Assembly: GCA_903863845.1 (NCBI GenBank)
Contig: CAIPDP010000082.1
Span: forward strand, 1-64,000
DNA from: an uncultured Mucilaginibacter sp.
GTDB lineage: Bacteria > Bacteroidota > Bacteroidia > Sphingobacteriales > Sphingobacteriaceae
Direction: 5' to 3'
DNA: 64,000 nucleotides
Positions 40,503-48,596 of this stretch are shown piece by piece. The position numbers were made by a program, and so were the translations under genes. Under the pieces are notes generated by a model that was not told where the DNA came from, made no database searches, and worked only from the letters and a program-made list of their open reading frames with translations. Within the stretch, counting starts at the first letter, position 1; each line of letters starts with the position of its first letter.

Positions 40503-40796
40503 CTATTCTTCAAATCTACTTAGCCTGTTACGCATGATGCGGATTTCGTCCTGAAGGGCTTCCATTCGTTGCAGCAAGTGGGTGATCGCTTCGATACCCG
40601 CCAGGTTGATTTCTAACTCTTGATGTAGCCTGATCATTTTTTCCAGCTTCTGCAATTCAGTTTCCGGTATAAAAATTTCCCTTTCTACAATTCGGGTCTC
40701 TAACAAACCTGCTTCGCTGAGTGAGTCGATAAACCGAAATTCAACGCGGTGGTAAGTGCAAAATTCGTTTGCTGCTATTAGTCCTGTCGCGGTCAT
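40503..40796 (-). CDS. cbpM: Chaperone modulator CbpM-like
   Basis: 97-aa protein directly downstream of the DnaJ/CbpA gene; MerR-like EFCTYHRVEFRFIDSLSEAGLL. Confidence 0.8.
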   Translation of the reverse strand: MTATGLIAANEFCTYHRVEFRFIDSLSEAGLLETRIVEREIFIPETELQKLEKMIRLHQELEINLAGIEAITHLLQRMEALQDEIRIMRNRLSRFEE

Positions 40797-40797
40797 C

Positions 40798-41718
40798 TTA
40801 TTTCAATTTTGATAATTCCGTAAAAAGCTCTTTTTGTTTATCAGTCAGCTGAGTTGGCACCAATACCTGGTAGGTCACCAACAGGTCGCCAAACTGGTTT
40901 TCCTGTTTATAAAATGGCAGACCCTTTCCTTTTAGTTTTACGATGGTGCCATTTTGAGTTCCGGGGCTTACTTTGATCTTAACCTTTCCACTAAGCGTAT
41001 TTACAGTTACTTCGCCACCCAGAATGGCCGTATAAAGATCGAGCTGAACATTTTGATAAAGGTTGGCGCCATCCCGTTTGAACTCCTGATCAACCGGAAT
41101 ATTAAAGGTAATGTAAAGGTCGCCTGCAGGCCCGCCATTCACACCTGGACTACCGTGACCGCTTATTTTGATCGTTTGTCCGTTTTCAACACCAGTAGGT
41201 ATTGTCAGACGGATGCTTTTCCCGTTAACAGTAAGTGTTTGTTTTTGAGCTACGGTGATATCACGCAGGTTCAACTTCAATTCCGCATTCAGATCCTGCC
41301 CGCGAAATTTGGTTTGTTTACTGCTGCTTCGTGCTCCGCCTCCAAACATGCTATTGAAAAAATCGGAAAAATCGCCGCCGCCGTTGAAATCGCCGTAGTC
41401 TTCAAAACCCTGTGCATGTCCACCGCCGAAGCCGCTGTAGCTATTGCTGTTTTGTGCCCTTTGCTGCTGTGCATATTTCTCATGCTCCTCGCCGTGTTGC
41501 CAATTTTCGCCGTATTTATCATACTTTTTGCGCTTCTCAGTATCACTCAATACCTCGTTAGCCTCGTTGATTTGCTGGAACTTTTTATTCGCTTCCGGAT
41601 CGTTGGGGTTCAAGTCGGGGTGGTACTTTCGAGCCATTTTTCGATAAGCAGCTTTGATTTCCTTTTCGGACGCTTGTTTATCTAGTCCCAGTATTTTGTA
41701 ATAGTCAATAAAGGCCAT
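40798..41718 (-). CDS. cbpA: DnaJ/CbpA-type J-domain co-chaperone
   Basis: [35 protein letters not shown]-terminal DnaJ domain; no zinc-finger repeats. Confidence 0.93.
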
Positions 41719-44766: not shown

Positions 44767-45903
44767 ATGAACAAAAACTACTTTTTGAAAAACCTATCCA
44801 TATTTATATTAGCCTGCTTAGCTTTTTTTGCCGTTTCATGTAAAAAGGAATCTAAAAGTAACGGAGGAAATAACGTTGTTACACCTGTTGCCACACCTAC
44901 TAAAATTGGCTTTTACGCTGCCGAACAGGTAGTAGTAGATACCGCAATATATCGCGTTCTTTTGGAGCCAATTACCCAGATCGGCACGCAAGCTATTAAT
45001 TACGACCTTGTATTTGATACGGGCTCGGGTGGATTGGTTATTGATGCTAATGGCGTCATACCTCCTGCAATGATCACAAAATCGGGTTTTAATTTTACAA
45101 CAGACTCTGTTGTAGTAAATGGAATTACCATCACTAATCAAACCAATATGATCGAGTATGGCGATGATAACGCCACTACTGATAAAGTTTATGGCAATCT
45201 GGCCTATGCCGATGTAAAAATAGGCGATCAAAATGGTAATATTACTGTAAAGAGACTGCCTTTCTTCCTGTATTACAAAGCGGTAGACTCAAAAGGAAAT
45301 GAATTCCCCGCGCATGACTTCGATGTATTCGGTGTAGCACCTGAGTATGATATCACTTTTGCCAATAATGCTTACATAACAAGCCCCTTTTCTTATTTTG
45401 ATCCGGGCAATGGTCTTACCAAAGGATTTAAGATTGATGCAGTTCCGGCGGCAAATTTTTCAAATCAAGGCACCTGGGTTTCGGCAGTTACACTTGGGTT
45501 AACTTCTGCCGATCTGAATTCTGGTGGTTACTCATTTACACAACTTAGCTTTACCCAAGGTGAAGGTTATCTTCCAATTTTGTCGGGAACATTAAATTAC
45601 GGTGGTAAAAATATAGCTACTAAAATGCTTTTTGACAGCGGCACCGAACCTTACAGCTATTTAGAAGACAATACCGCTACCAATACTTCGGCTGTTTTGT
45701 TGCCATTAAATACACCTGTATCAGTTTCAACTACTTCAGGATTTAATTATTCATTCACTACCCTGGCCATTGATAATTTGGCCTATGTCGAGAATCCCAA
45801 GTATTCCGGTTCTGATATCTCAGTTCTTAGTCTTGACTATTTTTTGAATAATTCCTACCTGATCGATTTTGCAGACAATAAACTGGGCTTAAAAAGTAAT
45901 TAA
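44767..45903 (+). CDS. Lipoprotein with pepsin-like (A1) aspartic protease fold
   Basis: Lipobox AFFAVSCKKE; motifs YDLVFDTGSGGLVID and MLFDSGTEPYSYLED; FDVFGVAPEYD; C-terminus ISVLSLDYFLNNSYLIDFADNKLGLKSN. Confidence 0.65.
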   Translation: MNKNYFLKNLSIFILACLAFFAVSCKKESKSNGGNNVVTPVATPTKIGFYAAEQVVVDTAIYRVLLEPITQIGTQAINYDLVFDTGSGGLVIDANGVIPPAMITKSGFNFTTDSVVVNGITITNQTNMIEYGDDNATTDKVYGNLAYADVKIGDQNGNITVKRLPFFLYYKAVDSKGNEFPAHDFDVFGVAPEYDITFANNAYITSPFSYFDPGNGLTKGFKIDAVPAANFSNQGTWVSAVTLGLTSADLNSGGYSFTQLSFTQGEGYLPILSGTLNYGGKNIATKMLFDSGTEPYSYLEDNTATNTSAVLLPLNTPVSVSTTSGFNYSFTTLAIDNLAYVENPKYSGSDISVLSLDYFLNNSYLIDFADNKLGLKSN

Positions 45904-46622: not shown

Positions 46623-48596
46623 ATGATCTACGTACGGTTAACCTTGTTTTTTATGTTGGCATCCGCCTGCACGGTTGTTGCAGCAAAGCCGATAACGATA
46701 ACTTCACCCGACAAGAACATCGTGTTCAGGCTCGATGGTAGCGCCAAAGGTTTAAATTATAGCGTGGCCTATAAAGGAAATGTACTTATAGAAAATTCGC
46801 AGCTAAGGATCAGCATTAAAAATGGCGGTGAATTTGGCGGTAGCGTTAGCACCGGGAAACCACAATTTAAACAAATGGAGGAAAGTTACGACCTGATAGT
46901 AGGACGCTCTTCTCATGTTCGCAGTATCAGTAATGAAGTTATAGTACCCGTAAGGGAAAACGCCGGACTGAAGCGTGAATTTGATATCGAGATCAGAGTT
47001 TTTAACGATGGGGCGGGATTTCGCTGGGTGCTGCCGGCAAGCCCTGGTTTAGAAAAGGTTGAGATCACCGATGAGTCAGATGCCTTCAACTTCAAGGGCG
47101 ATCCGAAAGCTCTGGTGCTTTTCAGGGAGAATTATACAACCTCGCATGAAGGGTTATATGACCATTTGCCTGTTAGCCAAATCAAAACTGATACCCTGAT
47201 GGACCTTCCGGCCTTGTTTGAATACCCCAGGGGCTTATATCTAGCAGTTACAGAAGCCAATTTGCTCGATTACGCGGGTATGTACCTTGTTAAACACAAT
47301 GGTGTACTTCAAAGCAGTTTATCGCCACTGCCTAAGCACAAAGACATCAAAGTTAAGGCAAGTTTGCCTCATAGCAGCCCATGGCGTGTGTTAGAGATCG
47401 GCGATAGGGTAGGTGCATTTTTGGAATCGAACATACTGACCAACCTGAGCGAACCCTGCAGGATAAAAGATATCAGCTGGATAAAGCCCGGTAAAACAAC
47501 TTTTCCGTGGTGGAACGGCAATGTTACACCCGATACTTCATGGGCCCCGGGCAATAACTACGAAACCAATATGTATTATGTTGATTTCTGCGCGAAATAT
47601 GGACTTGGTTACCATTCGGTTGTAGAATATGGTTTGCACGAATGGTATGTAAACGACGGTGCAACATTTCAACCGGGCCCTCATGCTGATCCTTCAAAAG
47701 CGGTACCCGGGCTTGACATGAAACAGATATGCGATTCGGCAAGAAAGCGTGGTGTGGGTATCAGGGTTTGGATCCATTTTTATGCGCTGTATCCAAAGCT
47801 GGATCAAACCTTTGATCAGCTCGAAAAATGGGGAGTTCAAGGCCTGATGTGCGATTTTATGGATCGCGACGACCAGGAAATGGTGCAAATGCAGAACGAG
47901 ATATTGGAAAAAGCGGCCCAACATCATTTACACGTTCAGTTCCACGGTGCATACAAACCAACCGGAACGGCACGAACCTATCCGAATGAGTTTACACGCG
48001 AAGGAACGCTCAACTATGAGAACGATAAATGGGGCGATAGGGTAACACCTGATGCCGATCTGAATATTGCGTTTACCCGTTTACTCGCTGGTTCAACCGA
48101 TTATCATTTAGGCGGATTCAGGGCCGCGAATGCCAAAACCTTTAAAGTGCATTATACAGCGCCAATGGTTCTAGGTACGCGTTGCCATATGTTGGGCATG
48201 TATGTGGTACTTGAAAATGAGCAGGGTATGGTTTGCGATTATCCGCAGGCATATATCGGGCAACCTGGTTTTGAGTTTTTACAACAGGTTCCGCTAACCT
48301 GGGACGAAACTAAGGTTTTGAATGCTAAAGTGAGTGAGTATATCACTGTTGCGCGCCGAAAGGGAGATGAATGGTATATCGGTAGCATCGGCAACAATAC
48401 AGTTCATAACATCAGTACATCACTTTCGTTTTTGCCACCGGGTAATTATACAGCAGAAGTTTATAGCGATGCCCCGGATGCTGATACAGATCCCAATCAT
48501 TTAACCAAAACAGTGGTACAGGTTAACAATAGCAGTGTTATCGATACTAAAATGATTGTTGGCGGAGGTCAGGTGATAAGAATCTATAAAAAATAG
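46623..48596 (+). CDS. Glycoside hydrolase family 97 (SusB-like)
   Basis: ITSPDKNIVFRLDGSAKGLNYSVAYKG; EYGLHEWYVND; GLMCDFMDRDDQEMVQMQNEILEKAAQHHLHVQFHGAYKPTGTARTYPNEFTREG. Confidence 0.93.
   Translation: MIYVRLTLFFMLASACTVVAAKPITITSPDKNIVFRLDGSAKGLNYSVAYKGNVLIENSQLRISIKNGGEFGGSVSTGKPQFKQMEESYDLIVGRSSHVRSISNEVIVPVRENAGLKREFDIEIRVFNDGAGFRWVLPASPGLEKVEITDESDAFNFKGDPKALVLFRENYTTSHEGLYDHLPVSQIKTDTLMDLPALFEYPRGLYLAVTEANLLDYAGMYLVKHNGVLQSSLSPLPKHKDIKVKASLPHSSPWRVLEIGDRVGAFLESNILTNLSEPCRIKDISWIKPGKTTFPWWNGNVTPDTSWAPGNNYETNMYYVDFCAKYGLGYHSVVEYGLHEWYVNDGATFQPGPHADPSKAVPGLDMKQICDSARKRGVGIRVWIHFYALYPKLDQTFDQLEKWGVQGLMCDFMDRDDQEMVQMQNEILEKAAQHHLHVQFHGAYKPTGTARTYPNEFTREGTLNYENDKWGDRVTPDADLNIAFTRLLAGSTDYHLGGFRAANAKTFKVHYTAPMVLGTRCHMLGMYVVLENEQGMVCDYPQAYIGQPGFEFLQQVPLTWDETKVLNAKVSEYITVARRKGDEWYIGSIGNNTVHNISTSLSFLPPGNYTAEVYSDAPDADTDPNHLTKTVVQVNNSSVIDTKMIVGGGQVIRIYKK

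Follow-up and report, generated by a model that had tools for sequence, protein, structure and literature searches.

In family A1 proteases, two aspartates activate a water molecule beneath a flap that bears a tyrosine. For a long time, pepsin homologues were assumed to occur in eukaryotes only (PMC2761423, PMC4814920). The bacterial homologues surveyed in 2009 have no signal peptide and were predicted to be intracellular; six of seven proteobacterial ones have Ala218, and Asp303 is replaced by Leu in the Shewanella and Colwellia proteins (PMC2761423). Shewasin D, reported in 2016, likewise has no signal peptide and is mainly cytoplasmic (PMC4814920). Mycobacterial PecA is surface-associated, so a bacterial pepsin-like protein located beyond the cytoplasm is not entirely without precedent (PMC6819658).

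The 64,000-nucleotide stretch of uncultured Mucilaginibacter DNA analyzed here (the window) carries at 44767-45903 (+) one uninterrupted frame (Table 1), 378 codons long with an ATG start, whose opposing reverse-strand frame has many stops. We consider it probable, from sequence motifs and a predicted structure, that the product is exported as a lipoprotein and that its mature part, one chain forming two lobes, is an aspartic endopeptidase working like pepsin. The initial annotation had proposed a bacterial lipoprotein of pepsin-like, two-lobed architecture, and the predicted fold, the order of landmarks and the conservation of motifs all support that proposal. It had put the DTG/DSG motifs about 205 residues apart; Asp84 and Asp290 are separated by 206. 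Both catalytic aspartates are present as described and are conserved across orthologues, and the flap, FDVFGV and the C-terminal segment follow in pepsin order where they had been placed. The motif [FVIL]D[TS]G[ST] occurs in this ORF alone (twice) among the 57 window frames of at least 150 amino acids, and two copies appeared in 29 of 200,000 shuffles of the protein; the two catalytic motifs are more than chance.

Table 1. Predicted features of the pepsin-like lipoprotein gene (positions in the window)
Feature	Position	Strand	Basis
Whole gene: 378-aa two-lobed pepsin-like lipoprotein	44767..45903	+	open frame; AlphaFold2; Foldseek
Signal peptide and lipobox, residues 1-25, FFAVSC/KKESK, ending at Cys25	44767..44841	+	sequence; C25 and K27 invariant in 34 relatives
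N-lobe catalytic motif FDTGSGGLVID, residues 83-93; Asp84 = pepsin Asp32, Ser87 = pepsin Ser35	45013..45045	+	
Flap EYGD (within IEYGDD); Tyr131-Gly132 = pepsin Tyr75-Gly76	45154..45165	+	conservation; hhalign vs porcine pepsin
N-lobe psi-loop, hydrophobic-hydrophobic-Gly, FDVFGV, residues 185-190 (pepsin FDGILGL)	45319..45336	+	
C-lobe catalytic motif FDSGTEPYSYLED, residues 289-301; Asp290 = pepsin Asp215, Thr293 = pepsin Thr218	45631..45669	+	
C-terminal psi-loop and terminal strand SVLSLDYFLNNSYLIDFADNKLGL, residues 352-375; motif Gly = Ser355 here	45820..45891	+	
Terminator-like hairpin with T-run, just after the stop codon	45925..45952	+	11 pairs, 6 G-C, loop of 6, T tail

Membership of family A1 was judged by the feature list of PMC2761423. 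The motif Xaa-Xaa-Asp-[ST]-Gly-[ST] occurs once per lobe, as VFDTGS (D84) and LFDSGT (D290); the flap tyrosine (Y131-G132) and the first hydrophobic-hydrophobic-Gly (V187-F188-G189) are present, and the predicted structure has the two-lobed pepsin fold. The second hydrophobic-hydrophobic-Gly is, strictly, absent from the window protein (Ser355) and present in relatives. With subfamily A1A (pepsin, cathepsin D, endothiapepsin; PF00026) the protein shares a single chain, two lobes and its best fold matches, as well as the DTGS and DTG/DSG-T motifs, the flap Tyr-Gly, an FDxxG psi-loop and a similar terminal strand. Unlike A1A enzymes, it is predicted to be lipid-anchored and has neither disulphides nor Trp39; the position of pepsin Asp303 is Leu or Ile across the family and Leu in the window protein. 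Like the shewasins and other proteobacterial homologues it is bacterial and two-lobed and has Leu for Asp303; it differs from them in having a signal peptide and lipobox, and its family keeps Thr218.

The AlphaFold2 model, run on a 34-row alignment of relatives, reached a pLDDT of 89.9 and a pTM of 0.84, with low values in the signal peptide and linker only. A Foldseek search of the PDB yielded 531 matches at E ≤0.001. The best 50 were all two-lobed A1-type proteases (probability 1.00, about 380 columns, E 3e-11 to 1e-9); pepsin, endothiapepsin, cathepsin D, renin, BACE, plasmepsin X and similar enzymes were among the matches listed. A fold unrelated to pepsin, named beforehand as evidence against the proposal, was not what the prediction gave: the model matches pepsin-like enzymes across both lobes. 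TM-scores for the matches listed are moderate (0.45-0.62, with an rmsd of about 6.3-8.2 Å), which suggests that lobes or loops differ from those of pepsin. Sequence identity to these solved structures is 11-17%, and no significant PDB sequence match was obtained, as might be expected of an unrelated β-rich lipoprotein in which the DTG/DSG motifs are coincidental. That explanation is strongly disfavoured and very improbable, given motifs invariant in a diverse family, a high-confidence model and, among the best 50 of 531, whole-length fold matches to A1 proteases only.

In the viral structure library the sole match at E ≤0.001 (E 3e-6) was an uncharacterized 609-aa protein of Pandoravirus celtis (BFVD A0A4D6EIF6), which is probably a two-lobed aspartic protease itself. 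The retroviral single-lobe proteases in that library gave E 0.09 or worse, with part of the chain aligned.

Sequence statistics point the same way with less force. The sole Pfam match of the window protein is PF00026 (E 0.0074, 16.2 bits, residues 71-306), which spans both motifs. The profile search suggested in the initial annotation thus found the expected family at a score below the curated gathering cut-off of 19.9 bits. PF00026 matched four of the 34 members (best E 0.002), and a scan of 41 relatives gave none at E 0.001; control genomes gave no match either, so that scan is uninformative. PDB sequence searches with the window protein, a divergent relative and two family profiles returned no match, and NCBIfam had none for the window protein. 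Comparison by hhalign of the wider family alignment with porcine pepsin (the sequence identical to PDB 5pep chain A) gave E 5.7e-4 over 74 columns, with the DTGS and the flap YG in register; the score of 34.4 compares with 27.9 for the best of 150 shuffled pepsins and 15.8 for reversed pepsin. Because the PF00026 match is sub-threshold, homology to A1 rests on the fold, the landmark order and this modest profile match; descent from A1 is favoured but not proven, and since the second Gly motif is also wanting we do not claim formal A1 membership.

Two other groups of bacterial aspartic proteases bear comparison. PecA and the C-terminal domain of PE_PGRS16 (PF20729; PMC6819658) are likewise bacterial two-lobed DTG/DSG aspartic proteases found outside the cytoplasm; they belong to PE proteins secreted by type VII secretion and, unlike the window protein, are not lipid-anchored. 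PF20729 does not match the window protein, and in two divergent relatives it matches (E 0.028 and 0.06) about 30 residues around the DTG motif only. The retropepsin-like bacterial proteases (PF13650, PF13975) share the clan AA fold, the DTG motif and the psi-loop and are often exported, but have a single-lobe domain model, unlike the two-lobed window protein, which neither profile matches.

Another two-lobed protein, retropepsin-like and ending in a PDZ domain, is encoded in the window's own genome (L083:1336-2586, + strand; G000:C73). Its second catalytic motif is DLGAG in place of DTG; the D, G, A and G of this motif do not vary among 15 orthologues. It matches PF13650 well above the cut-off, unlike the window protein.

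Such a protein shows that fusions of this kind exist in this genome, and the lipoprotein could itself have arisen by convergence, through duplication and fusion of a retropepsin-like (Asp_protease_2 type) gene independently of pepsin. Sub-threshold PF13650 matches in eight of the 34 members (best E 0.04) and in one divergent relative fit that origin, as does a distance from Asp290 to Ser355 of 65 residues, shorter than the 87 in pepsin. We nevertheless think it unlikely: the window protein matches PF00026 and not PF13650; its alignment with the resident retropepsin-PDZ family (E 0.042, 37 columns) is much weaker than that with pepsin; and A1 is the pattern followed both by the flap Tyr-Gly and by the N-terminal strand that runs into IGT...FDTGS. 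The retropepsin-PDZ family gave no in-register alignment with pepsin. Since the L083 model that was to serve as structural control was unusable (pLDDT 53), convergence is weakened rather than removed as an explanation.

Conservation is consistent with a pepsin-like active site. Asp84, Thr85, Gly86, Ser87, Gly132, Gly189, Asp290 and Gly292 are invariant in all 34 aligned relatives; Thr293 is Thr in 32 of them, and position 131 in the flap is Tyr in 30 and Phe in four. In a wider alignment of 16 rows, members only 24-28% identical to the query retain both motifs, so that over the two alignments the motifs persist in relatives whose identity otherwise ranges from 24 to 83%. The second psi-loop motif (V353-L354-S355) varies more, position 355 being Ser in 28 of 34 relatives, Gly in five and Ala in one; in the wider alignment, nine of 16 rows have Gly there. 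Divergent members are closer to pepsin than the query is in both psi-loops (DGIFGV and SVVGLNFF, against DGILGL and WILGDVF in pepsin), the first reading DGIFGV or DGICGV.

A strict two-motif pattern was satisfied by 54 of the 57 distinct members, and both catalytic motifs are kept in 56: L031 and L034 read FDTGSSA where the strict pattern calls for FDTGS-x-G, and their aspartates and second motif are intact. Catalytic aspartates that varied among orthologues had been named beforehand as a second point against the proposal, and this conservation (34/34 and 56/57) runs counter to it. The exception, L071:6848-7984 (+) of genome G121, has Ser for both aspartates and His for the flap Tyr, and the same genome carries an intact copy. 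As read from its sequence, L071 is a natural pseudoenzyme of the family. That these three residues were lost jointly in L071 and are retained by every other member speaks for their acting together as a single active site.

L071 also means that the fold has gone without catalysis at least once, and the motif Gly of the second psi-loop is Ser in the window protein. Both observations would suit a pepsin fold kept for another function, that of a binding lipoprotein or inhibitor, like the pregnancy-associated glycoproteins or the plant xylanase inhibitors. We regard such a function as quite improbable for the window protein, because it is difficult to see why the other 56 members would retain both motifs unless catalysis were under selection; the equivalents of Ser35, Tyr75 and Thr218 are retained as well.

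Export is suggested by the N-terminus, MNKNYFLKN...ILACLAFFAVSC25, which by inspection has a basic start, a hydrophobic stretch and a lipobox cysteine, and for which the AlphaFold2 model gives a helix at residues 10-23. The protein is thus predicted to be lipidated at Cys25. The mature protein has no other cysteine, so no disulphides would form. The surface-export signal of Capnocytophaga canimorsus lipoproteins is C-x-K-(D/E)2 (PMC5080379). Lys occupies +3 in all 51 lipoprotein members and Asp or Glu occupies +4 in 41, with +5 rarely acidic; the resemblance to that motif, which was defined in another genus, is thus partial, the second acidic residue being missing. Several members of the divergent group (L064-L069) have signal peptides without a lipobox. 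In four genomes of genus g14 (L065-L068), the divergent non-lipoprotein homologue lies between the genes for NAD synthase and apolipoprotein N-acyltransferase (Lnt); this placement may be chance, since the four genomes are close relatives. As the characterized shewasins have no signal peptide, an exported, anchored lineage is a real though modest novelty.

If the protein is indeed a pepsin-like protease, Asp84 of the N-lobe and Asp290 of the C-lobe would come together on the floor of the interlobe cleft to activate water, and the flap carrying Tyr131 would close over a peptide substrate. The lipid on Cys25 would tether the enzyme to the outer membrane, and the site where proteins or peptides are cleaved would be the periplasm or the cell surface. 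The role would most likely be protein scavenging or the processing of surface proteins; the gene neighbourhood favours neither. Because the Thr218 equivalent is kept, the pH optimum is probably acidic to mildly acidic. Mucilaginibacter inhabits acidic peat and soil, which such an optimum would suit. An exported, membrane-tethered, disulphide-free family in a genus common in soil and peat would offer a tractable bacterial enzyme with which to study acid proteolysis at the Gram-negative envelope.

A more speculative possibility is that these two-lobed, exported proteins, lipid-anchored in the outer membrane, form a separate Sphingobacteriaceae lineage branching near or outside the root of A1. 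Such a position would bear on whether the pepsin duplication predates eukaryotes, and with more divergent members the family could inform when the two-lobed pepsin architecture arose.

Together the proteins make up a pepsin-like family of clan AA, encountered in three genera of a single bacterial family. When 301 Sphingobacteriaceae genomes were searched with the protein, 38 of them, from two of 25 genera, gave a match, the named relatives being Mucilaginibacter MAGs. With a profile as query, 401 genomes of the bacterial family yielded in addition a divergent clade, which occurs in a third genus and also in a few genomes of the window's genus; weaker matches (E about 1e-4 to 0.1) in these 401 mostly span the signal peptide alone and reflect chance or a signal common to lipoproteins. 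Among 396 genomes sampled from the whole phylum, just three matched, each belonging to the window's own genus. In these searches, full-length members came only from Mucilaginibacter and two further genera of its bacterial family. IMG/VR viral contigs and PLSDB plasmids held no relatives, and porcine pepsin as query found none in PLSDB either. A genome may carry up to three copies. In G195, two diverged members lie in tandem (L081:6999-9432, +). The gene is a narrowly distributed accessory gene of Mucilaginibacter and close kin. Within the literature searched, nothing relevant linked Mucilaginibacter with pepsin or aspartic proteases; together with the restriction to three genera, this fits the earlier description of an under-described Bacteroidetes lipoprotein.

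On its upstream side the gene is flanked by a HAD-like hydrolase gene transcribed divergently; on its downstream side the strong hairpin terminator is followed by genes for a DUF1493 protein and a GH97 enzyme. Across 25 loci, gene order is common to very close relatives only and no conserved partner was found, so the gene appears to have no operon partner and to be a stand-alone accessory gene; the hairpin likewise suggests a stand-alone transcript. Its G+C content of 38.6% is slightly under the window's 42.1%, which gives no strong sign of recent transfer. Beyond the terminator and the DUF1493 gene, the GH97 glycoside hydrolase (46623-48596, +) is complete, with all three Pfam domains. Elsewhere in the window, 40503-41718 (-) reads as a CbpA/DnaJ-like chaperone gene followed by a short CbpM-like modulator gene.
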